This document shows positions 22,039 through 55,300 of a stretch of DNA of 64,000 nt, piece after piece. Origin of the DNA: Pegea sp. RAD2-039 (lineage: Eukaryota > Chordata > Thaliacea > Salpida > Salpidae). Each line of letters starts with the position of its first letter. The stretch's first letter is position 1. The DNA lies in assembly GCA_034620365.1 (NCBI GenBank), contig JAQGEQ010000071.1, positions 2,728,001 to 2,792,000 on the forward strand. Reading direction: 5' to 3'. The notes beneath the pieces were generated by a model. That model searched no databases, was not told where the DNA came from, and worked only from the letters and a program-made list of their open reading frames with translations. Both the position numbers and the translations under genes were made by a program.

Positions 22039-24288
22039 TCAACTGTTAGATAACGCTTGTGCTTGAAAACTCATCACTTGCTGCTTTGAAACCGTTTTTA
22101 CCACGCATTCTTTGCCTTTCATAGCTGATGAGCCATTAAATAGAACAAGTTCATTTACATCACTATGTGATTCTTTTGCAGGTACCACTACAACCGGATG
22201 ACCTCCAGTTGGGCGCCATATTAAGGTCTGAGCATTGTTAGCACTTGGTCTAACCAGAGCACTAAATGGTATTTGACATGATGAAAAGATATTAGTTGCA
22301 CTATTACTATTGCTGTTATGATCACCACCGGTAGCAGCAGTAGTCGACATACTGAAACTGGTTCGCTTCTTGTTGTTCATTCGACTTCGTTCTCCATTTC
22401 CACTGGTCACAAATGGTTGTTTTTGAGCTCGTGGAGCTACAATACGCGCTCGACAACCCAGCTCTCTACTTGGGTCTACATCTATTTCTAAGTAAAAATT
22501 CCAACGAACAGTCTTTAGAACTATGATGTCTTTTGTGGTTTCGTTGATGGCTGCTAGCCACGTGATAAGCTTTGATCTCTAACTATTCGTGTCAAGTGAG
22601 CAGATGTTCCCTCACTAACAGGAATGTCCCATGTTACTGAGGGGTAGAAGTTGTCGTTCATCTGTTAACAGAGAACAGCTTTAGTATTTTGATCAAAATT
22701 TCGTTTTTAACTTTAATTGAAGTTTTGAGTAAACTGGTCAAGTCGAGAGACATTTTTGAAATGATAATTTTCGAGGAAGTTTTTTTATCATAAATTATAT
22801 TCATAAATACAAGTTACATAAAAAGGATTCAGTCAGCATTCATCAGTTTATAAATTAATTATATTTTGAAAAAATTTTCAAGACATGAAAAAGACTCGTT
22901 TTAACAGAATTTCATTATTTAAATCATTTAAACATGTGTTGAAATCGGTATCGTTCGGTTAAAACCAAAGCAGCTGACAAAATGTTATCGATTTATTCTA
23001 AGTTGTTTTGATTCATCATAATTAGTTTCAATTGAAAGGTCAACCTAAGTACTTAATACAACTGTTTATATTAAGATGTTTGTTAAACCTTTCTTTTAAT
23101 TTTATAATAAGTTAAATTATAAATAGAAGAATCAATTCGAATATTTTCAAAGGTTTATCCATTTGTTAAAAAGTAATTAAATTCTAAGCTAATAAATTTT
23201 TAAACATGTTTAAAGTAATTGAAGCCGATAACTTGATGCCAGATAAAGCTGAATTTTAAACAGAAAGAATTTAAAACTGTTTAAGTAAAATATGTCAAAT
23301 AGACTTTGCAACTAACCGTCAAGTGCATACACTTGTAGGTATCTGTCGGACCTACTATCGTAGCGATCTCAGTTGTGTTACCGTACCACGGATAGGAAAC
23401 TCCGTCACTATCACTCACAGCAGATATTTTTCCTGTTTTTAATGCTGGTATCTCCCAGCTTGAGCTACAAATTGAACAGTTGCTGATTAACTATTTATGG
23501 TATTGCTTAGCTAAAATTACTCAAAAGAAAATTAGTAGCATGAGATCAGATAGGTTGAAAGAAAACTAGTTAAATAATTTAGCGATAAATTTATGGATTT
23601 TGTTGAATATTGATTTGTGTGCAAAGAAAGGTGTTAGTTAAAAACATTTTCATTTAACAAAAATCAGTAAAAATGGTTTCATCACTAAAAGTTAGTTCAA
23701 ACAAAACGTAACCAATGCTAATTTTAAATCCATTCAAAGTTATAAAAGTTAATATTGATGAGATATTTCTCATAAGTGAACATCAAAAGTTAGATATAAT
23801 TAGATTTTACAAGTAAATAGTCAGGTGAGATCATATGGTGAGTATTTAAAAGATGTTTGAAGCTTTAATATACAAACTTTAAAGAAAGTTGAAAGTTACA
23901 AATGAAAAATATGACATCAACAATGAAATCATTGTTGTTGACTTTGAATTGTTTAAAGTCAACTTTCAAGAATTTATACCAGAAACAATATATAAAAAAA
24001 CAATATTCAGAAAGTATCTCACCTTCCAAGCATTCCGTATTGATTTACAAACTTCATATGATCACAAGCTTGGATCCAACCCACCGTCCATGTTTCTTTT
24101 CGACGTATTGGGGGCATTATGACTTGAGCATAAGCTCGGAAATAAGGAGTTCTATATCGAAGTACGATTGGAGAAAACTCTTCAATTACTGTTGGAGACT
24201 TATCAATACTTGCTTGGACATTACTGTAAATATTTGTTTGGCAAGGACCGACTTTAGCTTTGCTGGAGACACTATGAAAGCATCCCAT
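22039..24288 (-). CDS. FAM78: FAM78-family protein, conserved core
   Basis: Three exons encode the conserved FAM78 fold: 24,288-24,023, 23,464-23,317 and 22,661-22,039, with GT-AG introns in phases 2 and 0. The start MGCFHSVSSKAK matches MGCIQSITCKARIR of vertebrate FAM78B and has the MGCxxS form of an N-myristoylation/palmitoylation signal. IVLRYRTPYFRAYAQVIMPP and ETWTVGWIQACDHMKF follow, then SDSDGVSYPWYGNTTEIATI, then MNDNFYPSVTWDIPVSEG, and near the end SALVRPSANNAQTLIWRP. The core would be 345 aa against roughly 260-280 in vertebrates; the surplus is mainly a Ser/Asn-rich insert and a longer tail in the last exon. In the last exon one base is missing near 22,570 (after codons for RDQS), so the reading frame as given breaks and resumes in another frame; this is either an assembly error or a real lesion. 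The molecular function of FAM78 is unknown. Confidence 0.85.
24286..24288 (-). promoter_or_regulatory. Conserved internal start codon (MGCxxS)
   Basis: This ATG lies inside a long open exon and is where vertebrate FAM78 proteins begin. Glycine 2 can be myristoylated only if translation starts here, so its use decides whether the product is lipid-anchored. No in-frame stop separates it from the upstream coding sequence. Confidence 0.6.
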
Positions 24289-27200
24289 GTTTAGTAAGTT
24301 TTCTGAGTATAAGTTTTGCTTGATAGAGCTTGAACAGTGATTGCTACCTGCTTTGTTTCTGTTTAAAAATTTGCTAAAAAAAGACGAATTTTTAACTGAT
24401 AGTCGTGGACTATTACAAAGGCCTCCAAAAATTATATTGAAGGTGTCACGACTATCTGTTGCTCTGCAATTGGAGAAAGGTGTATTTAGCTCTTGGCTGG
24501 TTGATACAAACGTCCTTCTTGGGTCGAGATTGGAGCTTGCCTTTCCAATTAGTGAAAGATGATTATTACTTGAACTGTGACTTTTAGTCTTTTTTTTGTT
24601 ACTGTTTGTTGAAGATAAAGGTGCCAAAAAACGATTACTTCTTTCACGAGAATACAAATAATCTAGATTTTCAGCTTGAAATGTACCGTTTATGCCACTT
24701 GCTAGCTCAGTATAAGGGTTCTTTTTACAAATCTTTTGCACCGATGGAAATCGTGGAAGAGTTTTTATACTTCTTAATTGGCAGTGTTTACTTTTGTTGT
24801 CATAAATTGAACAATCTGTAGGTAGATGGCTTATCCTGCTTACTTTCAAGTGATCTGTATCTCTTGATCTCACGAATCCTAAATTCGATTTTATCGGAGG
24901 AAATGTCAATTGATCGCTGACAACTTGCTTGTTAGAGTCTTTGTAGCAATCGATGCGGCTTGAAGTAGCGTTTGTATTGCAATTCTGCCAATGAGAGTTT
25001 GAATAATTGGTTTTCAGCAGAGTTTTCTTGTTGGAGATAAGCCTTAGTGAGTGATCTTTTCTCTTATGGAAAGAAAAGTCAAGTGCTGTTGGTTGATGTG
25101 CAAGAGGCACCCCACTTGGGTCACAGAACATACGCCCAGGTGATTTCCAATTAAAATTAGCTGCATTAAAAGAGGATTGAACTTCTGGTGAAATTCTTCT
25201 TTTTAAAGGCTTCGATTGTACTTTCAATTCTTCTCTTTTTACTTCTTTTACAAAATCAGGAAATTTGTTGCGATTGACTTTAAACTGTTTTTTGTGTAGA
25301 TCATAAAGACCTTCTGAAGATTGCCTAATAAAATTATTACTAGGGTAATCGGGGGGAGACCTTTGAAAGCTAAAACTACTACGTAATTTTTGAGTAGAGG
25401 GTTCTTTTTTACTTGCGTTGGACTTTATAAAATCTTTGCGTGGTAAAAAACTCCCGCTGATGTCTAACAGCGTTTCAACTGGAGGCTTGCGGTCAGTTAA
25501 ACGAGGAATGTGATCGCCACAAAATTTCAAATGTGAATTTTTTTCTGTAAAAAGTTAAATCATTTAAAACAATAATTTTAAAGTCTGTTAAAAACTTGGT
25601 TAATCAAACTTTGTTTAAAATAGGAATTTAAAAAAGGGTATATTATGTATATTTAATTTTTTAGCTTTAAGAATAATTGCTCAGATTTTTGTACATCAAT
25701 ATAACTACTTGACACAACATTATTTAAAAATCTTTAGAATGATTTTGCCAGTGGTTAAACATCCAATTATAAAGACATACGTTACAAAATGTTTATTGTA
25801 ATAATCAAGTATAAACAGCATTGTTTCTATTTTTTATGATGTATTATATATTAGTATATATACATGTATATATTATTTATAATATATATTGTATATGTTA
25901 GCTGCTGAAGAAAAATGTGCACATGTAGAATTTGGTTCTGTAAAAATGATACAAAGATTCAAACTTATTCACTTGACAAAGAAACAAACAACTACGAAAT
26001 AGCTGAAGAAGCTGAGAATTTTGGAATTTTTTAAAAACTAAAAGAAACTAAGTGATATTGCTAGATTCAAATACAGGAAGCAAAATTTTGCGTAATTTCT
26101 ATTCAAAAGCACTAGAAATTTTTCAGCAACTACAAAGCAAAGACTTATAATGAGTTTTGTTCACGTAAATTTCGTTAAATAAATTTTATAAAAAATAATC
26201 GTTTTCAATTATGATGCTTTAAGCTGAAAAGCTATTTTCACGAACATCTTGCTATAAATTAGTTTATAATGTTAATAGAAGAAAAAAATAAAATCCAATC
26301 TAAAATGTTGCCTTTAAATAGCTTTTTTGTCTACTCATCAGTCCTGTAATTGATTGAACATATAAATCTACAGCAACATTTACTGGTAACTTCATATACT
26401 ATAATTCTATTCAATTAAACCTGTTTTTTATAAGATAAAAAGAATTACTAGAAAGTTCTGACTAGTAAGCCTATGAATAGATAATCAAATTTTTGAATAA
26501 ATAAAATTTATTTTTCTAACTTATTCTTACAGAAAACCTTTGAAATTCAAACAAGCAAGTCCAGTTGCTGTTAGCTTCGCTGTCACTTCTGACCAGATAA
26601 TTTTACAAGGTGAATTACAGGAAGGACTTCTTTATAGCTTATATAATTTTACTTATTTGTAGGATGAAATGTTTATTTTCTTTTTACTTCAATAATAAAC
26701 ATTAAAACGATTAGTTTCGTGAACTAATATCACCTCAAACTAGTTAATCATAATTTGAGTCATGTAGTCTTTGTAAAACTAGTAAACGCTTCCTCTAGAA
26801 CAGGCTTAGTAAATTAACTATTGTTAACAAAGTCTTTTAGAGATTACAAAATTAATTTCAAACTAGACAAGAAGTGATAATAATTAAGTTGGTGGCTTGG
26901 CACACTCATTATTAATTTCCTCTTATCACACTCTGTTATTAAGTATTATAGTGACAGGCTTCCTGAAGCGAAAAAAATAGATTGACATTCTTATCTCGGT
27001 GCAACAGATGCCGGTAGCTAAGTTTCACAAGTAATAGTTTACAGGAAGAAATGTATTCAATATTACATGGTGCATATTTTGCCCACAAATACATATGTTA
27101 CATTCATTCGTGCGCGAAGTACTAAACAGTAACAATTTCATATTTATAAAAGTTACTTAAGTTAAATAATATAAGGAAACAATTAAATTTTTAGCTGGTA

Positions 27201-30200
27201 AAAAAACTTTTTCAAGTTCTTACAAGATAAGACAGAACTTGGGATAAGTATTATCTTATTTGTATTAAAAATATTTTCATTTTTACAACTTTTTCATTAA
27301 CACTATAATTTCAGGGGTTTGCTAATTGGTGAACAAAGCTTCATGTGAATATTTCAAAGTTTTAGTCAGGTTTAATATAGATTAAATGTAAAATTATATT
27401 AGTATATTTATCGCAAAAATTAAAAATCTTAAATATTATTAAGAAATTCTAACTAAAGATGAAGCAACATGCAAGTCTCATATAAGTAGCTGCTTAAAAT
27501 ATTCACTTTTGTCATTAACTTATTTTGTTGTGCAGTCATAACCATATTATAGCAAATATTTATTATTGTGATCGTGTGTATAAGTAATATCTAGTCAATA
27601 ACATTTGTGAGTCAGTTTAAATAATTATTAAAATGAAGTTTAGAACAAAGCCAGCTGATGAACACGACAAAATGACAAATAATTGGTGCATACCTTCATT
27701 AGAAACTTATGGTAAACCAGTTTTAAATGAAAATTTTAAGAGGGAAAAACAAATCATCAAACTTATTATCATCTATAATCATCAAACTTATAGGTTAACT
27801 ACAGATGTAATTTACGTTCATATTTCAAGAAGTTGAAAGTAAATAATAAGTAAATGAATAAAAAAATTCCATACACTGGTATAATTTTAAATTTAGTATT
27901 GATATGGACACATAAATTAAGTTTTGTTTATTAACATACATACTACTATTTCAAATTTTAGGTATATAGATAAGCACTAGTTTAATTATTCATACCATAC
28001 TTCCTGCTTATAACTCCTTGAGAAAGTTTCTTAGTGAAATATTTGAAGGAAAATATCGAATCATGAAAAAATTGAAGAAAAAAGAGTTTTTTATCAACGT
28101 GAGCGATTAATGTTAAATCAAATAATTTATCAGGAAATTTGTGTACTTTCAAAAAGCACGCACAAAAATTTCTACTTTAGCTTTAAATAAAAAATTGATA
28201 ATCTTTAAAAAAAAAACTAGAAGCTTAAACTGAAATTTATATCACTTAGTGAAGTAGAATTTTTTTATAAAATATTTTAATTGCATACCTTGCAAAAAAA
28301 ATTATCATAAATTTCTTTTTGGCTCAATACTCAATGCTAGATTTTCATTATTCTTTAGTCTTATCAAAACCTTGACTTAAATAAAAGGACTCATCTAACA
28401 AATTGAGATAAAAAGGCACTCAATGTAAACTGTTGTTTGATTAAAAATAATGTTTAAATAAAGTTATAATTCCTACTTTGCTTTGATAGAAAATAAGATA
28501 GTCACAACAGTACAAGCAAAAACCGGCAGGATATTGCAAGCTACAATGTTGTCAGTATTTATTAAAACTGTTTTATAGTGTTTTAAGAAGTTAAAACGAC
28601 TAAGAATTTGAATCTAATAAAGTATAGATATTATAAGAGTTATATTTTTGGAGTTCATATGCTATATTGTAAAGTTTAGTATTGATACTTATTAAAGGCA
28701 ACATTAAGTAATATAGCATACAAGGCTCGTATGTTTAAACTACTAACACAAATCTGTTTAAATCATTTTTAATAACAAAAATAAAGCTAAAGTTAGTTTT
28801 TGCAGTATATTGCTAGTTAGCAAGCTATGTAAATATCAACTATTTACTAGAATCTATTATTTTTTCAGTTACAAAAAGTATAAGAAAATTAGGTTTGTTC
28901 ATTAAGCTTGAAAATAATCTAAGAATAAATATTTTTTCAAACATGAATAGTCTCAAATATTAAATGGAAAAAAAATCATTTTTACTTGGAAAAGTAGATT
29001 TTAAAAGTATCCAATAAAAAATTTCAGTTTGACATTTATTTTTGACATTTTACTTAAACAAAAGTTTTAATATTTCCGATTATTGTTGATAATATATTAT
29101 ATTATTTTCCTACTTACAGTAATCTTTATAACCTTATGACAGAAATACTAAACTTTTTACTAAAATCAAACTTTAGAATAAAACTAAACAAATTAAATCT
29201 GTTAGTTTTCCAAATTAGAAGTTATTCAAACTATATCATGTTACACCACAAACATTTACGAAAGTTACTTACGCAAACGTTTTCTAAAAAAATGTTTTTA
29301 TTCTTATATATAACTTTAAAAACTTGTTGATACTTTTTTGCATAAGCAATTTCATCGTCTTAGTTTAAGTCATAAATTTCTATAATTACACGTTTTGATT
29401 ATTTAGCTTAACCGAGTTTTTAAGAAAACCTTGAAATTGAATCGATTTTTTAACAACTTATCGGTTAGATATCTAAAAACAAACAAAGAATGACCTTTAA
29501 AAACAGACTAATTTTGGAAAATACAATTTTAGAAATCAAATTGTAAAAGTCCTTCTATGAACCATTAATTTGTAAAGTTAAAATCTAAGCAAGACATCTT
29601 GCTCATAACGGAATCATAAAATTAAAAGTTTACAAAACAATAAAACTTTATTGCAAAAACTGCTCAACCAACAGCTTTTAGTATCATATTAAATAGAAAA
29701 TACAATTTTTGTGAATCAAGTTGCAGAATTGAAATTGTTTTCATAAAAACTTTAATCAACTTACCACGTTTATTCAGGAGTTTTTTTCCAGGGTCACTGA
29801 TCCAACAATTTTCTGAGATCTCTTTTTCGGAGGAGTCTGTAACCGAAAAATGATTGTTGTTGTCACAGAAATTGTTTCTTTTTCTTTTCAACGGTGGCTC
29901 CCAGCTTTTATCTCGCAGCTGAGACCTGTTCGAATACTTCTGTTGCTTCATTTTGCATAATAAGCTACCAAAATTACAACCTTAAAACTATAGTTGCTAA
30001 TAAACCAAAAACATTGTTAAGAGAATATTGAACTTTTTAAATAACATAAAAAACATATGAAAGAATAAACTGAAAAAATGTAAATATCAATTTTTGCTTC
30101 AAGTCATTTTCTTTCACTCGTCAAAATTTGAATAAACTTTTTTAATCTTTTAAGTTTTTGACTACCATAATTTCAGCCTTGCTGAATCAGCTAAATGCCA

Positions 30201-33200
30201 CTAATTTTCAGTCTTGCTTAAAAATTCTGAGCTCTAGCAGCTTAATAAAGTGAAGCAGCGTTAATACAATTGCATTTTCAATTTATAGTCATATGAGTGT
30301 GATATTACTCTCTAAATATTTTTATACTTAACTTTATGATCGTGATAACAAAAGTGGATGTTACATAAAATAATATCCGGTTTTTTTTAACTAAAAATAA
30401 TACATCATAAAATCAAAGGGCTTATAGATAAAAAAAACAAAATTTCATAAATGTTTAAAAGTTTAAAAGTTTTAAATAAATTGAATGACCAACTTATAAA
30501 CAAACATTTCTTAAACTTTGGAACTTATACAAAACTTAGCAAAGAACTAAAGAAGTTCTTAGCACATATTTTCTAAATCTCATAACAAGTCTGCTTCTTC
30601 AACAACCAACAAACAGTTATCAAACTTTAAAGTTGAGGATTACAAAACTAGCTGTAAAATTACGCATTTTTGATTTACCAACTTGTATTTATATGCTGAG
30701 AAGATTGTTCAAAACACAACTGAATATTTGTTATCATATTGTTTTACTTAAGCTAAATTAGGACATTTTGCTTTGTTTTTGCCTACTAGGAAATGTCTTC
30801 TTCTAAATTGATAACTTCCAGAAGCGCTATCTATTTCAATAGAATATTAAATTCACTTTTCTAATTTAATAATATTGTGACTACCAAAATTTTTTGTGAA
30901 AGATATGCTAATTCTATAAACAATTTTAAATAATCAAATCTAAATTTTTTAACAAATTTGAAATTTCTTTAATAAACGATAAAAAATTGATGTAGGCATA
31001 TATGGATTAAATTATTAAAATAAGATATTATTTATTACAATTTCATAATTTAAAAATGATAAAAAATGGTTTACACAAATGATAAAACTTTTATTGCTAC
31101 ATTTTAATCTAACTCAAATCAACTATACTCTATACATACAAAGAAATGAAAGTTAATTTGAATACAACAATAAAATATCTTATGAATATCCTCTTGGATA
31201 TTATAAAATCTGATAATGTCAAAAATACTTCTATTTTATAAAGTTGAATACTTTTTTTATGAATAAGCTGCTTTTACCATCATTTAGGTAATATTTACAA
31301 ACATTTTGAATTATTCATAATAAAGTAAACCCAAAGTTAAGCTAAGATAAATAAAATAATAGATAGGTAAAAATAATTAAGAGCTTTAAGATAACAACTT
31401 TCAAGCAACAAAATCAAATTACAACAATTATTTAGTCAAACAAAAGAAGTAACCTTGTCAAAAAAAGTAAAAGTTAACTATAAGATAATTAGATACTTTA
31501 AAAAAAAATTTCTAAAACTTATCAAAATTTTTTAACAAATACCTTTATAAAACACGCATAAACACTAAAATTATTATTCTAAATTTACTTTTTTTATAGA
31601 TATACAAATTCAAAGTTGAAGTTAAAACAACTTTTAAAAAGTATTTTCTTCTTATTATTAGGTCATCCCAGTTGTCACTAATCTTGCAAACAGAAGTCTG
31701 AACTTTTTTGACAACAAACTTACTTGATTACTTTCAAATTTAAAATGATACAGAAGGTGCTTTAAGACTATAGAAGATTTTGAAAAGTTTATTCCTACAT
31801 CTTAGTGAGCAAAATACCTTGTCTGAAATGATCTGATAATAATAAGGATTACTTGAGCTCTAAAAAGAATCTGATAATCTACATGAAAGAGATGAATATT
31901 TTTAACCCATATAAAACTTACTTTATTTTGGTTGAAACATGATCTAATCAAAAAACTGTTTACTCATTCTTATAAATCTGTTTGATATACGAGTCTTTTC
32001 TTTTTCAACTTATTCTAGTCTTTTCTTTTTCAACTCGATGATACAACTCTGCTGTCAGTTTTCAGACTAATAAGGAAACAAAACAGAAACTTCTGACATT
32101 TATAGAAATAGATACTGAAAGTTTTACATAACACTTATGTAATTAAAACAATGTAATTACTATTTCAAAACATTAACTGGTCAATAAATAAATCAGTAAT
32201 TAAAAAATCCCAAATTCAGATGTTTTGTAATGAGTTACAAAGAAATAGTTATTACAGTTAAAACATTAAGTTGGCTTGGCAAAAAAGAGCTTCTATTTAA
32301 GCATTCTATAAACATCTTTATTGAAATAATCAGAGTTATAAACTTATTCTACAGTAATAAAAACTTTAATTACTCTAGTTAAATTATTCATCTAAAACTG
32401 CAAGCTAGAAGCTCATGAAGTGAAACATTCTTATCAGAAAATCTTTTCTGTTTGTGTGTTCTGAACTCAAAAAAACAAATATCTTCATTTAATTACTTAA
32501 ATTCTGCTTGCTTTTTGTTCAATAAATTCAGTTGCATGCCGTTAAAAAATACCAAAAAGTTATATACCAGCATTTGAAAATTGCTCTGTTTTTATAATTA
32601 AATAACAAAGAAAACACAAAATAAAGTTGTAAATACAAAAAAGGATGTAAGCTGACTGGCTAACGCCTTAGATAAGAAGTTTAGTTTCTCCTTTTGTTTA
32701 TTTTCATACCACATCAAAATAATTATGAGAAAAGTAAAACATTGAGTGATATATAAAAAAGTTTCCCTCTGCTGTATAAACTAATAAAAAACTTCTTATT
32801 ATCTGTAAAAGCTATTTAAGATCACTAAGATTACTTTTTTTCAGCAAAGTATGTGTATAGCAATTATATTTACAAGATTATAGACGTTGGCAACAACTGA
32901 TTTAAAATATTGAGCTCCATTTTTTTTAATTTGCTTAATGTGAAGTATATATTCTATTTAAAAGTTTATTTAGAATTTTAATTTGAAAGTCGTGAGTATT
33001 CTTTTTATAATGCTTATAAACAACAGAATGTGTTTTATGTTTTTTAAATTTTTTCTTAATGTTCTATTTCTCACTGTGAAGTTAATTGTTTTGTATATAG
33101 CTTTTTATCTCATCATTGATTTAAATTTTAACAGCTAAAGGAACCCTAAATAGTTTAGAATAGTATTCATAGAATTTTATTAGATAAATCAATAAGTGAT

Positions 33201-34064
33201 TTCTACTTAAAAATTATTTGATTCCTCATAAGTATCAAACAATTCAAAATTACAAAGTTGAAGTTGAATAAAAACTGTTTTGTAAATTTCCTCTAATATT
33301 TAATATTACAATTTATCAATAATTATATATTTATATAACTTCTAGGGCAGAACCTGAAGATATCAGTAATTATAAGTTATCTATTTTATGCCAGAATAAT
33401 GTTCATAAATAGTTTGAGATTAACTTGTTGAAGATTAATAGAATATTTATAAAAATTAGAGAAATCAAAAGGTTAACTAAACAAATCTTCATTACAAAAA
33501 GCATAAGCAATTGGAATGGATCCAATCAAGTTTTGCTGCAGCTCATGAATTATTCATGATGTCTAACTGATGTAAATAACAGAAATTGAAATTTATAATT
33601 TCTCAACATATCTTTTGTTTCAATGCATTAAACTTTAAAAACCATTTTTTACTTTGAAATTAAAACAAACTGAATCCTATTATTTAACTTATTACTTTAC
33701 AAGATATCTTATAAGATTTTATTGATATATTTGATCATTTGCTATCAAAGGCAACGAATGATTGAAAATTTAATTTATAACATTATTTAAAGCAAGTCAC
33801 CTTTTTGATGTCCAGTTTTTGTTCTTCCTTGGTTGGCTAGATTTCCTTTTAATTGAATTAGTCAAGGGGTGGTGGTCTGAGCTGGTTGCTATCAGTTTGA
33901 AATAATGAAAAATAACTGGAATAGAAGTTTAAAATTATTAGATGCTTGAAGTTAATGACAAAATTAAACTCACCAGATAACAAAGTAAGAAAATGTTTGC
34001 GGTTCTTTTGACTTTTCTTCAGAGATGTAGTAATAGTTTGAATTAAATATTTGTGAATAATCAT
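24289..34064 (-). CDS. In-frame N-terminal extension exons of the FAM78 gene
   Basis: Upstream of the conserved MGC start the frame stays open for 418 codons to a splice acceptor (ttttacag) at 25,545. Three further exons join with matching phases: 34,064-33,974 (ATG, ends phase 1), 33,888-33,801 (phase 1 to 2), 29,964-29,765 (phase 2 to 1), then 25,544 onward. Each has a consensus-like GT donor and AG acceptor. The sum to the MGC codon is 1,635 nt, exactly 545 codons. The encoded sequence is Ser/Lys/Asn-rich, probably disordered, with basic patches (PPLKRKRNN, NSIKRKSSQPRKNKNW, KPLKRRISPE), and I recognise no domain. Met codons are rare in the large exon, so starts within it are only possible at MFCDPSG or MGCFHS. 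Whether it is translated as a fusion, a separate isoform, or partly 5' UTR cannot be decided from sequence. Confidence 0.5.
25545..29764. other. Large intron of the FAM78 gene
   Basis: This is a 4.2 kb intron between the 29,765 donor (cgtg|gtaagt) and the 25,545 acceptor (tttttacag) on the minus strand. It is AT-rich, with a TA-alternating tract at 25,840-25,900. One exon-like piece lies on the opposite strand at 26,533-26,609. A 67-codon plus-strand open frame at 27,633 has no further support. Confidence 0.45.
26533..26609 (+). CDS. Candidate isolated exon, unknown gene
   Basis: Between a good acceptor (cttattcttacag) and a donor (caag|gtgaat) lies a 77-base piece with one open frame, KPLKFKQASPVAVSFAVTSD followed by QIILQ. 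Its base composition is more balanced than the surroundings. No neighbouring exon could be joined with confidence, and it runs opposite to the FAM78 gene within its intron. It could be part of a nested gene, a decayed exon or chance. I do not recognise the family. Confidence 0.25.
29965..33800. other. AT-rich intron of the FAM78 gene, nothing recognised
   Basis: This lies between the second (33,801-33,888) and third (29,765-29,964) proposed exons. It contains only short A/T-driven frames and no repeat that I can name. If the upstream exons are rejected, it is intergenic. Confidence 0.4.
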
Positions 34065-49300: not shown

Positions 49301-51341
49301 AAAGGACTGAAGCAAGGCAGGAATCAGCAAGCAAAAGAGTCGAGTAAAAAGCGTCGAGAAAAGAGTACAAGATCAAAATATCAAGGAAGGTTTGCCATCA
49401 AAACAACCTTGTGTCTTCCAGTTGATCTGAGTTTGATTTCTTCAGCAGCTCTTCAAAACCTAATCAAGTCCTGTCTTCATCGAGCTTAGCTGATGCGCCC
49501 ACTGGTGGTTCAAAATCTGACAGAAGCAAAAAAGAGTCTTCTGCTCTTCAAGATAAGCAGCAAGTCGAAAGGACCCAAACTCAGCAAATGGAACGTCCAT
49601 CTGTAAAAGAACATGAGAATAAAGAGAAGTCAGCAAATCGTGAAGGAGTCGATTCAGCTAGAAGAGATGGGAGTCTTGGATCTACTGAAAGTGTGAACGC
49701 ATATGAATTAGATAAGAAGACTTCAAGCAGGCCTGGGTATGCAAAAACCTTCACATGAAAGTTGATCAAAATATTTATTTCTTTTCTAATTTTTTTGATT
49801 ATTTAAAATTTCAATCTCAAACAACTTCAAGTCCTTAAACTTAAGATCTATTTTGTTATTCACTTACACTAACCCACTTATTTAATCTCAATTATCTAGT
49901 CTCCGATCAGTCAGCTCAATAATTAATTGCTTAAAAAGGTACAAAAGTTCATCATTAACTTTCTGTCATGATTGAAAGCTCATCAGACATTAAACTTTGA
50001 TGTACTTGGTTAGGGTTAGGGTTTTTTGTATTTTTTTAACTAGTATCTCAAAAGATGAGATCATTAAGAATACTTTTTACTATTTACAAAGACCTGAAAG
50101 TAATATCTCTCTTTTATCACAAATGACTGTTTAAATATATAATAAATTGTTTTGATTAAATAGAAATTATTTTTTACAATTTAGGTTGTTTATAAAGAAA
50201 TCTATTTTTCTCTCTGTCATTGTCTTAACTTACTTTTGTATCAGATTGAAAATAAAAAATCTTTTATTTTGAAGAACTCCTCCAGGTAAAAGCGAAGCTT
50301 ACGAGGAGTTTAAAAGAGAAAGAGGAAAAGAAATTGCCCGAATATTGAATGAAAATAAAACAATATTTCAAAGCAAAAAAAGAACTGTAAGATTTTTTTT
50401 AACTATTTTGTAATTTATGAAAAAGTAAAATCGATCCTTTAGGTTCGAGATCTTGCTCATGCAGTAAATGCCAGCAAGCATATGATTGATGGAGCACGTA
50501 TAGCTTTAGAAAGAAAACGTCAGGAAAGATTAGAACAAGGTTTGTTTGATGTGAAAACAATTTGCTAAAATTCATTAAAATTAAAAAAAATGTTGGTCAG
50601 GTGAATTTGTGGATGAAGAAGGTGAATTAGTGATCGATGAAGAAGAGTTTGAACTAATCTCACAGTTAAAGACCTTGAAGCAAACTTACCGGTTAGCCTG
50701 ACACAGTTTCGAAGAAATCACTTTTAAACCAACAAATTGCTTTCAGTTCTGACTACAATGAGTTGCGAAATGTGAAGTCTGAAGTTGAGTATTGTGAAAA
50801 ACTTGTGAAGCAGTGCCGTGAAAGATTAGTAAGAGGTGAAAGATCTTCTTCATCTTCTCAATCATTTGAAATTATTTTCATTCTAGAGTTTGACAATTGG
50901 TACAATGAAATGTTTTTAAACGATGGAGAGATTTTATCTAACACTATCAACAACAACAGAAATATTATGATTAGCAATACCAGCTACCAGCAAAACAAAC
51001 TTATCGTTCCTGTTCAATTAAACACTGAAGATGAACAAGTATAAATTGATCACTAGGTGGTGCTAGAACTTAATCAATATTTTCAGGAAAAATTTGATCG
51101 TCTTCAACAAGAAACAATGTTAGAAGAACCAGATGCAACTGCTTTTCTAAACGCGCAGCTAAGAACACGCAGACGAGTAAATAAAAAATAGATTCTGATG
51201 ACTTGTACTCAAAACTTATTGCTTTTAAAACAGAAAATTTTGGAAAAATCTTATGAACAAACGCAACCTCATAAAAACGTCGGAACCCCGAGAATTTCTG
51301 TTCGAAATCGACCTCCAAATCAACTTTCTTATATTTACTGA
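46325..51341 (+). CDS. KIF9: Kinesin-like protein KIF9 (kinesin-9 family)
   Basis: A microtubule motor of the kinesin-9 family, which acts in the axoneme of motile cilia and flagella. The model has 21 exons: 46325-46414, 46658-46765, 46876-47037, 47092-47215, 47276-47377, 47585-47706, 47909-48001, 48103-48240, 48335-48409, 48464-48586, 48758-48847, 48982-49167, 49229-49389, 49449-49736, 50275-50386, 50443-50539, 50601-50691, 50747-50835, 50887-51038, 51087-51176, 51234-51341. All introns are GT-AG and the sum is 866 codons plus stop (human KIF9: 790 aa). The motor domain spans about residues 5-345: P-loop GQTGAGKT (91-98), FEGETNR, switch I NKNSSRSHCIFT, switch II LVDLAGSE (254-261), and YINKSLSYLEQ. 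The KIF9-specific tail follows: FMEGKTSDIDVQSMRHLNAI, a Ser/Lys/Gln-rich linker, a coiled coil with IDEEEFELISQLKTLKQTYR, and EFDNWYNEMF. All catalytic motifs are intact. Confidence 0.95.
50008..50023 (+). repeat. Short interstitial TTAGGG repeat
   Basis: The sequence ggttagggttagggtt sits in KIF9 intron 14 (49,737-50,274), the longest intron of the gene at 538 bases. It comprises two full TTAGGG units with partial flanking units. It may be a trace of telomerase-mediated break repair or chance. Confidence 0.6.
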
Positions 51342-52327: not shown

Positions 52328-55300
52328 TTATTTGAGCCTGTTATAAAAAAATAATAATCCAACTGCAAGCAAAAAAAGAACAACTTCAAGCCCAAACATT
52401 GCATTTAATGCTGTTTCAGCTGTAGAAACATTCAGTTGATACCCAAGAAATTCAACTGGTTTATCTTCCAATGAATTAACTTCTTTGCATAACTCAGTTA
52501 CTCCTCCAACACAAGATGCATATCTATACATACATTTTATTTTTATAATTTATTTCATAAAAGTTTGAATATCTACAAACAATTTTGCAACAAACGTATA
52601 ATCTCAAAACTCATTAGATATTTAAAATACAATCAGAGAAAAATTTACCTCATCACATGAGCGATGTAGCTTTGCTCATGAACAGAGTGAAAGAGATGGG
52701 ACATAGGTCCTGATGCAAGAATAGGTATGTCATCTCCACCATGAGTTTCTGAATCTTTTGGAACCGCGCTTTGCTGTTTGTAATCAATACCTCCTGTAAA
52801 TGTCATTTTATATTTCAATGAATACAAAAAATTAGTTACTCAGTTACAAAAATTGGAAAAATGTTTCGGAAGGTTTTTCAAGTAGATCTTTTACCAGTTG
52901 TTTCAGTTGTCAAAATTTCTCTATTATTAGGTTCACCAGTACCCTGATACCCTTCACCATTGCCATACAGTAAACCAGTATATGGTTTTCCATCTGCAGC
53001 ATCATCAGCAGTTAGCCCTGAAAATGGTCAACAAATCAGTGAACCCATTGAATTAGATCAACAAAATTGAAGTAGTCTACCAAATATTGGATTCCCTCTC
53101 TCTGGATATCCAGCAAACGTAAATGTATGTCCATGATCAGCAGTCACAATGATCAAAGTATCAGATGATGATGTCATTTGACGGGCTTTTGCGATAGCGT
53201 TGTCAAATTCGACTGTTTCATGTAAAGCTCGATATGCATTTGAGTTATGATGAGCGTGATCTAAACACAACAAATAGTTTTTCTCAGTTCTTCTTTCCAA
53301 ATATTTATGATTTTGCTTATTTCAAACTTTTACAAATTAATTATCTCAAAAATCTCTTTATCCTGTTGTATATCTTCATTTGCAATCAGCAAAGTATACT
53401 TGATAAAAACAACCAAAAACTGATTACAATTTCAAAATCAATTAGTGTTTTAATTGGACATTTTTTCTTTGAAAGTTTAGATTCATATCTTTTTGTTAGA
53501 TAATTTTGTCGAAATTAGCTTATATCTTACCAATTCTTCCTCCTTCGACAAGCAGAAAAAATCCTTTTTCATTTTTTCTCAGAATTTGGATTGCTTTTTC
53601 AGTCATTTCTGATAAACTCGGTTCACCGGTAGGACTTTTATTTCTATCAACTTCATACTGCATATCACTAGGTTCAAACATTCCTGTAATGCAGCAGTTT
53701 GTTTAAGAGTACAAAATAAATCATAATATTTATTCAAGTTTTCAAATTTATTTGATTTTTAGCTAATCATTTATTAAAAGTTTTCAAGTTCTACTTAACC
53801 AATAAATCTCTAAATTTGCACTGAGTAAGACTGCCATATTTTTTTTTTAATTGTAGATATATTTGTTTAAAAGAACAACAACAAACAAGACACCAATTAA
53901 ACTAAATAACGTGGCTCCTCAAACACCTGTCAGCCCACAGAAGCCGATAAGAGGGTTGACAAATTTTAATGAGATAAGTTTTCAGTTGCTCACCTAACAG
54001 ATGATCAACATCATAAGGGTCAATGTTGTCAAAATCTTTTTTATTCCAGACATATCTTGCTGATCTTCCAAGGTTTTTCATCTTTTCCTGCCACTTTGCA
54101 ACTAAATCCTGTCCATCTCCTCTACCATGTTTTTTTTCTGGATATTCTTCATCAGAAAGAGAACTTGGTCGAAAGTACTTTCGGCCCCCGCCAAGCAACA
54201 CCTGGAAATTCAAAATTGGTCGAAAGCTATGAATAAAATCTTAATAAAATTGTTGGATAAAAGAATAAAAAAAAAAAATTTTTTCTGCAATTATAACGTA
54301 AGAAATTTTGCATATGACTGTAAGCTTATAAAACCTTTTCAACAGATTATGAAATTGAGAGCTTAATCTTGTTTTTGTAAAGAAATTATTTATGGATAGA
54401 CTGAAAACTCAAGATACAAACACAACTTATAAAAGTAAACTAACTAAATACAAACCTCGATATTTGAAGAAGTGGAATACAGTTGATAAGCAATATCAGT
54501 GCAACCATTTTTGACAGCTTCTTCAGTTAGGTCAGTATCATCATACCAATATCTGGTTGCTGAATGAGCATATGCACCAGAAGGAGTGGCGTGGTTTAAG
54601 CGTGTAGTAGTCACAATTCCCGTTGATTTTCCTTAAATGGAATTATAAAAATGAGTTTAAAATTAAAGTTGCTATCATTAATATAAAATAGTTGATTACT
54701 TTTAAAAACTTGGGTTGATAATTAATCAATTTCAGTCCCTTATACGAGATAATTGATGTTTATAAATTTTAGCTTTTAATAAAATAATCATTTATTAATC
54801 TTAATGATTAATTACTAAATTTGACATTTATTTTGATCTAGTACTTTATTACCTGCATAATGGGAGTCCATTAAAACAGACTGAACTTCCTCTCCTTTAG
54901 TAGTATTACATAAGCCAGGAGTTATAGCAGCTGTTAGACCTATAACTGCCATATGTGTCTTAACTCCAGTCAAATAAGCAGTAGCAGTACCAGCAGAATC
55001 TGGGACTTGGTGATTTACATTATACGTCTGAAATTAAAGATCAAAATAATATTTTTAACTAATTTGAGTTAGATTGTTTTCTTAATTTTTACAATCTTTG
55101 ATATTGTTTATCAATTACTAGTTTGATTTTAGTTCTTTGCATTCATGGCTAATATAAAAATGATCAAACTTTTGCAAAACCCATATGTTCAGCAAGATCC
55201 ATTGAAAGAACGGCTTCAGCGCCAAGCTTATTTTCACTTTGGCCCTTTAAAATTCTTCCAGCAGTAATGCTAGCCGTAGCCATACCATCACCCAAAAATA

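Follow-up and report, generated by a model that had tools for sequence, protein, structure and literature searches.

Where does a FAM78-type protein begin when its MGC start codon lies inside an exon, within one long open frame that continues far upstream? This question is raised by a minus-strand gene of Pegea sp. RAD2-039, located in the stretch from 2,728,001 to 2,792,000 of JAQGEQ010000071.1 (64 kb, GC content 27%), which as a whole is referred to below as the window. FAM78 proteins occur widely among animals; we know of no study of them, nor of an established function for FAM78A and FAM78B. Human FAM78B consists of about 261 residues and FAM78A of about 283, a difference which implies that the annotation of FAM78A itself may include residues ahead of MGC. 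Among the matches listed for FAM78A and FAM78B in the literature, titles and abstract openings indicated no functional work, and no paper was found that joins FAM78 with myristoylation or with Brachionus, or FAM78A with non-AUG initiation. The gene was analyzed in the window, and genome-wide searches covered the 387-contig assembly of 105.7 Mb.

Organization of the FAM78-type gene

The spliced model on the minus strand consists of six exons with GT-AG at all five junctions (Table 1). The running length modulo 3 after exons 1, 2, and 3 is 1, 2, and 1, as had been proposed in the original prediction, and the ATG of MGCFHS was verified to lie at 24288, inside an exon with 418 further codons open upstream of it. 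Two other points of that prediction had to be corrected: the codons ahead of MGC number 554 upon recount instead of 545, and the core, which had been taken as an unbroken frame, is interrupted in exon 6, where the spliced frame terminates after 727 codons. Exons 4 and 6 each match only themselves in a sequence search of the assembly; the idea that the extension stems from a transposon or a multi-copy element was rejected, since exon 4 matches the genome once, at itself.

Table 1. Exons of the FAM78-type gene model, with positions numbered from the first letter of the window
Feature	Position	Strand	Description
Exon 1 candidate	33974..34064	-	91 nt; GC 26%; stop codon immediately 5' of ATG 34064
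Exon 2 candidate	33801..33915	-	115 nt; splice-compatible; GC 36%
Exon 3 candidate	29765..29964	-	Open; GC 39%; donor GTAAGT
Exon 4, whole	24023..25544	-	MGC ATG 24288 internal
Exon 4, upstream of MGC ATG	24289..25544	-	418-codon in-frame, ATG-poor stretch; putative N-terminal extension and probable scanned leader
Exon 4, from MGC ATG	24023..24288	-	Start of FAM78-type core (MGCFHSVSSKAK...); A at -3, G at +4; from translation and junctions
Exon 5, core	23317..23464	-	SSWEIP...SDSDGVSYPWYGNTTE...; junction phases 2 and 0; GC 45%; codon score 0.38
Exon 6, core to stop	22039..22661	-	Frame change near 22569-22564; 179-codon frame 22578-22042

The core is assigned by us to the FAM78 type on the basis of motifs, namely the words ETWTVGWIQAC, SDSDGVxYPWYGNTTE, NDNFYPSVTW, and RDQS..TWL, which we take to be characteristic of FAM78 cores. 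The N-terminal MGCFHS fits the MGxxxS motif of the myristoylation type with Cys at position 3, the lipidation being predicted. The core piece gave no credible match in Pfam, NCBIfam, or PDB sequences (best, Ig_7 with E of 0.065, under the cut-off, and a PDB chain with E of 0.66), and neither a FAM78 family model nor a FAM78 structure was encountered in these searches; no relatives were found in viral and prokaryote collections with the 89-residue core exon as query. Against the FAM78 size of about 261-283 residues, exon 4 alone adds 418 codons and the originally predicted model 554, and a short form starting at MGC would lie nearer to this size than a long form.

For the extension, no Pfam domain was detected up to E = 10, no NCBIfam family up to E = 1, and nothing credible among PDB sequences (best E, 5.9). 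As judged from its composition, the extension is basic, Ser/Lys/Asn-rich, and probably disordered: in the charge-hydropathy comparison it falls on the disordered side (mean hydropathy 0.393 vs a boundary of 0.445), while a 173-residue piece of the core does not (0.472 vs a boundary of 0.417).

Other features were noted in the window and in the genome. An open frame at 50697-51041 on the plus strand carries a Pfam KIF9 domain (E 3.6e-9, over the cut-off) and belongs to a kinesin-like gene, and another at 53905-54240 on the minus strand matches the Pfam alkaline phosphatase (E 4e-11, over the cut-off). A 133-codon open frame at 23893-24294 on the plus strand, antisense to the FAM78 start region, probably just mirrors the coding strand. 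No Rfam family matched in the window at gathering scores. Among the kinase-domain matches listed for the genome, several each are clustered on contigs C75, C265, C260, and C14, and in many of these a single open frame spans the domain completely, perhaps representing an expansion of intron-poor kinases.

Coding signal upstream of the MGC codon

None of the 418 codons of exon 4 ahead of MGC is an in-frame stop, and the other frames of this stretch contain 27 and 38 stops in the forward direction and 36, 20, and 23 on the opposite strand. The probability of 418 open codons was estimated to be about 5.3e-11 from the dinucleotide composition of the stretch itself, and about 2.5e-17 from that of the adjoining intron, in support of the earlier claim that such a long open frame is unlikely by chance in AT-rich DNA. 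This frame, with 511 codons from stop to stop, is the longest in the window, and the runner-up of 179 codons belongs to the same gene. The GC content of the exon-4 stretch is 36% as compared with 23.6-24.6% in four intron stretches.

For measurement of codon usage, a model was built on 28 open frames, each 220 codons or longer; kinase loci supplied 25 of them and three 10-kb stretches the other three, and repeats were removed by a 60-base key. The exon-4 stretch scored 0.105 in frame, and the scores of the 28 control frames, each taken when left out, lay between 0.014 and 0.337. The 37 intron windows, on which the non-coding part of the model had itself been trained, gave a mean of -0.23 and a maximum of about -0.09. 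One reverse frame of the stretch slightly outscored the true frame (0.135 vs 0.105), indicating that the codon score alone cannot choose the frame. An earlier model from kinases only, superseded by that from the 28 longer frames, gave for the whole stretch 0.139 in frame vs 0.228 in one reverse frame, and with this kinase-only model the synonymous-only score of the stretch showed no signal (-0.04).

The frame was further examined against a null set of 300 stop-free random sequences of the same composition. The contrast among the three forward frames was reached by none of the 300, the in-frame score by 10, and the inequality of GC across codon positions by one. When the stretch was divided into thirds, the frame contrast was strong in the first (0/300) and not significant in the middle and the last (104/300 and 59/300, respectively), the last third still showing unequal GC by codon position (1/300). 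The stretch was taken as coding because of its exon-like GC content and the frame-specific codon signal in its first third, and we conclude that translation of a good part, at the least, of the exon-4 frame ahead of MGC is very probable.

Depletion of ATG ahead of the MGC start

The 1254 nt of exon 4 ahead of MGC contain four ATGs vs a dinucleotide expectation of 11.9, a feature which the original prediction did not mention and which is newly found here. No other trinucleotide expected more than 8 times is as depleted as ATG, for which the ratio of observed to expected is 0.34, the next lowest being 0.64. The stretch is the ATG-poorest of 1255 minus-strand segments of 1254 nt, taken with a step of 50 over the 64 kb; the minimum on the plus strand is eight ATGs per segment of this length, 18 overlapping control coding segments of 1254 nt contain at least 20 each, and segments of the same length in two large introns contain at least 15.

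The depletion was also evident when only the out-of-frame ATGs were counted. The stretch contains three, as compared with 8.9-33.8 per 418 codons in all 28 control frames, and its ATG z of -3.05 lies below the controls (-1.85 to 1.69). Permutation of codons gave a mean of 12.1 out-of-frame ATGs, with three or fewer in none of 2000 permutations. Synonymous shuffling showed no deficit (mean 4.5; three or fewer in 478 of 2000), indicating that the avoidance of ATG sits in the order of residues and not in synonymous choice. If selection is responsible for the deficit, it acted on a weakly constrained peptide, and a peculiar peptide could by itself yield the same deficit. Out of frame, ATA (z -2.95), CAT, and TAG are likewise under-represented, and AAG is over-represented (z 3.99). 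Some trinucleotide with z below -2 is found in 26 of the 28 control frames and one below -3.05 in four, and ATG is the lowest trinucleotide in none of them.

The contexts of the few ATGs are weak. The base at -3 is T or C in all four ATGs of exon 4 ahead of MGC, and the MGC ATG itself carries A at -3 and G at +4. Along the spliced 1440 nt from ATG 29951 in exon 3 to MGC, the four ATGs present all lack a purine at -3. On the genomic strand, a gap of 1432 nt free of ATG with a purine at -3 covers the exon-4 stretch together with 179 nt of the preceding intron; this is the longest such gap on both strands of the window, the second being 1170 nt on the plus strand, and at 33 other loci (286,104 strand-bases) the longest comparable gap is 979 nt. 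The depletion of ATG points to a translational route to two forms, by leaky scanning, and not to a plain fusion.

Exons 1 to 3 and candidate upstream starts

The in-frame codon scores of exon 1 (-0.16) and exon 2 (-0.12) are in or near the range of the intron windows; at 30 and 37 codons, respectively, both exons are so short that their scores are noisy. The other forward frames of exon 2 score 0.19 and 0.23, each with three stops. Exons 1 and 2 are probably untranslated or not exons, and we would not rely on ATG 34064 of exon 1 as a start. In exon 3, whose GC content is coding-like, another forward frame scores higher than the frame in question (0.24 vs 0.13), and no frame-specific signal was detected, the contrast being reached by 152 of 300 nulls. 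Taken together with the coding signal of exon 4, the original reading stands with respect to the exon-4 frame, for which a fused long form or two forms of different anchoring fits, but not, in view of these codon scores, with respect to the exact 5' exons.

Exon 3 contains an in-frame ATG at 29951 with A at -3, from which the extension would be 481 codons in length. Another ATG at 29958, also with A at -3, opens a frame of 16 codons (29958-29910, minus strand) that overlaps ATG 29951 and represents a possible regulatory upstream frame. If present in the same mRNA, these two ATGs would catch most scanning ribosomes, and the mRNA for a short form would then either lack exon 3 or be tolerant of these ATGs.

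Frame change in the last exon

As observed by eye, the reading frames before and after about 22569-22564 in exon 6 are offset by one, and the entering frame meets TAG at 22556-22554. After the change, 179 codons are open to the stop ending at 22039, and coding signal persists in this frame, its contrast being matched by one null in 300. The change falls between 'RDQS' and 'TWLAAIN', which we take to be conserved FAM78 words that adjoin each other. The change may be due to an error of assembly, to a damaged allele, or to recent decay, and no second copy or haplotype lacking the change was found in the genome search with exon 6. Programmed -1 frameshifting was rejected as the leading explanation, as inspection by eye detected no slippery heptamer X XXY YYZ at the change. 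A tiny GT-AG intron of 30 nt, also noted by eye, was rejected because its removal leaves the frame unaltered and would delete residues that we take to be conserved.

Possible production of two forms from one exon

The stop-free frame, the near-absence of ATGs in all frames, and the strong context of the MGC ATG, which opens a motif of the lipidation type, altogether favour two starts. We therefore propose, giving the proposal about an even chance of being correct, that exon 4 of this single-copy FAM78-type gene serves a dual purpose, as an extension and as a scanned leader, so that a short form would be lipidated and a long form would not. The first 418 codons of exon 4 would constitute an N-terminal extension in frame with the core, and the same stretch would be the leader that scanning ribosomes cross on the way to the MGC start. 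The short form would be initiated at ATG 24288 and carry an end of the myristoylation/palmitoylation type (MGCxxS). The long form would arise from an inefficient upstream start, either the weak in-frame ATG 25131, a near-cognate codon, or, if exon 3 is included, ATG 29951; it would be unlipidated, because its MGC would be internal and not N-myristoylated, and the two forms may differ in location. Expectations of leaky scanning were tested on the exon-4 stretch, which proved to be free of in-frame stops and to contain few and weak AUGs.

A bolder version, which we put forward tentatively and consider doubtful, is that a 5' leader exceeding 1.2 kb became a domain of 418-481 residues while avoiding ATG in all frames, so that one mRNA would give both a FAM78 with a lipid anchor and a long FAM78 that is soluble and possibly nuclear, at a ratio set by start-codon stringency, the avoidance of ATG having shaped the order of residues. 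The extension includes PPLKRKR, which resembles a nuclear signal. A lineage able to bypass the lipid anchor through an upstream start would offer a natural test of the purpose of the anchor. More broadly, a stretch both coding and depleted of ATG is a signature by which dual-start genes can be scanned for computationally without transcript data.

The best-surviving alternative, which we judge unlikely, is the use of two promoters or splice choices, in which long transcripts run from exon 3 on and separate ones, starting or spliced just upstream of 24288, give the MGC form with no leaky scanning. Use of the short start is suggested by MGCxxS with its A at -3 and G at +4, the ATGs of exon 3 with A at -3 would block scanning, and acceptor-like sites are present inside exon 4 at 24373 and 24463; these sites are, however, two of four tied as the best among 93 AGs and are not exceptional, and separate transcripts leave the ATG poverty of the whole upstream part of exon 4 unexplained. 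Trans-splicing of the bdelloid type into an internal acceptor was also considered, but the rotifer leader, as given in the available part of PMC3795323, showed no match with up to one mismatch, and the idea is unsupported for that leader only. In the available part of PMC1925144, no evidence of such a spliced leader is described for a monogonont rotifer.

It is improbable that the long fused protein alone is made and that MGC is an internal relic. The continuous frame and its codon signal would agree with this, but the appearance of MGCxxS and of its start context is that of maintained features, and few ATGs precede MGC. More improbable again is the converse, that the upstream part of exon 4 is an untranslated leader open by chance and that the MGC form alone exists: the ATG depletion suits a leader, and the middle and last thirds lack codon-frame contrast, but the probability of the open frame (about 5e-11) and the contrast of the whole stretch (0/300) stand against it. 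Least probable of all is that the FAM78 copy is in decay or is broken by an assembly error (under decay the extension would have no functional weight), as suggested by the frame change within a stretch that we take to be conserved and by the failure to find a second copy, because the rest of the core coding stretches is open and the 179-codon frame keeps its coding signal.

Comparison with known systems

The dual use of exon 4 proposed above may be compared with known cases. With FAM78A and FAM78B, the gene has in common the MGCxxS start and the core words, and differs in the 418-481 extra in-frame codons before MGC, in a Ser/Asn-rich insert in the last exon, and in 44 residues that follow the VVVPAK end. 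With XL-alpha-s of GNAS, it would share a long disordered N-terminal part in frame with a lipid-anchored signalling protein; the XL-alpha-s part is provided by an alternative first exon and promoter, whereas here the same exon is used.

N-terminally extended proteoforms produced by leaky scanning or non-AUG starts are an established kind, according to the available parts of PMC9082881 and PMC9789052, and such an extension can alter location, as in the case of FGF2 (from a title cited in PMC9789052). The arrangement proposed here has in common with those described there an in-frame upstream extension, the same mRNA, and a second start at the main AUG, but the extension is far longer than the 50-codon stretch evaluated in the available part of PMC9789052, and its initiation is inferred. 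POLGARF of the POLG mRNA, which as described in the available part of PMC9082881 is encoded in another frame, is 260 aa long in humans, and starts at CUG, resembles the present case in that a long frame is translated from a start within the leader and ribosomes that scan past it still reach the main AUG.
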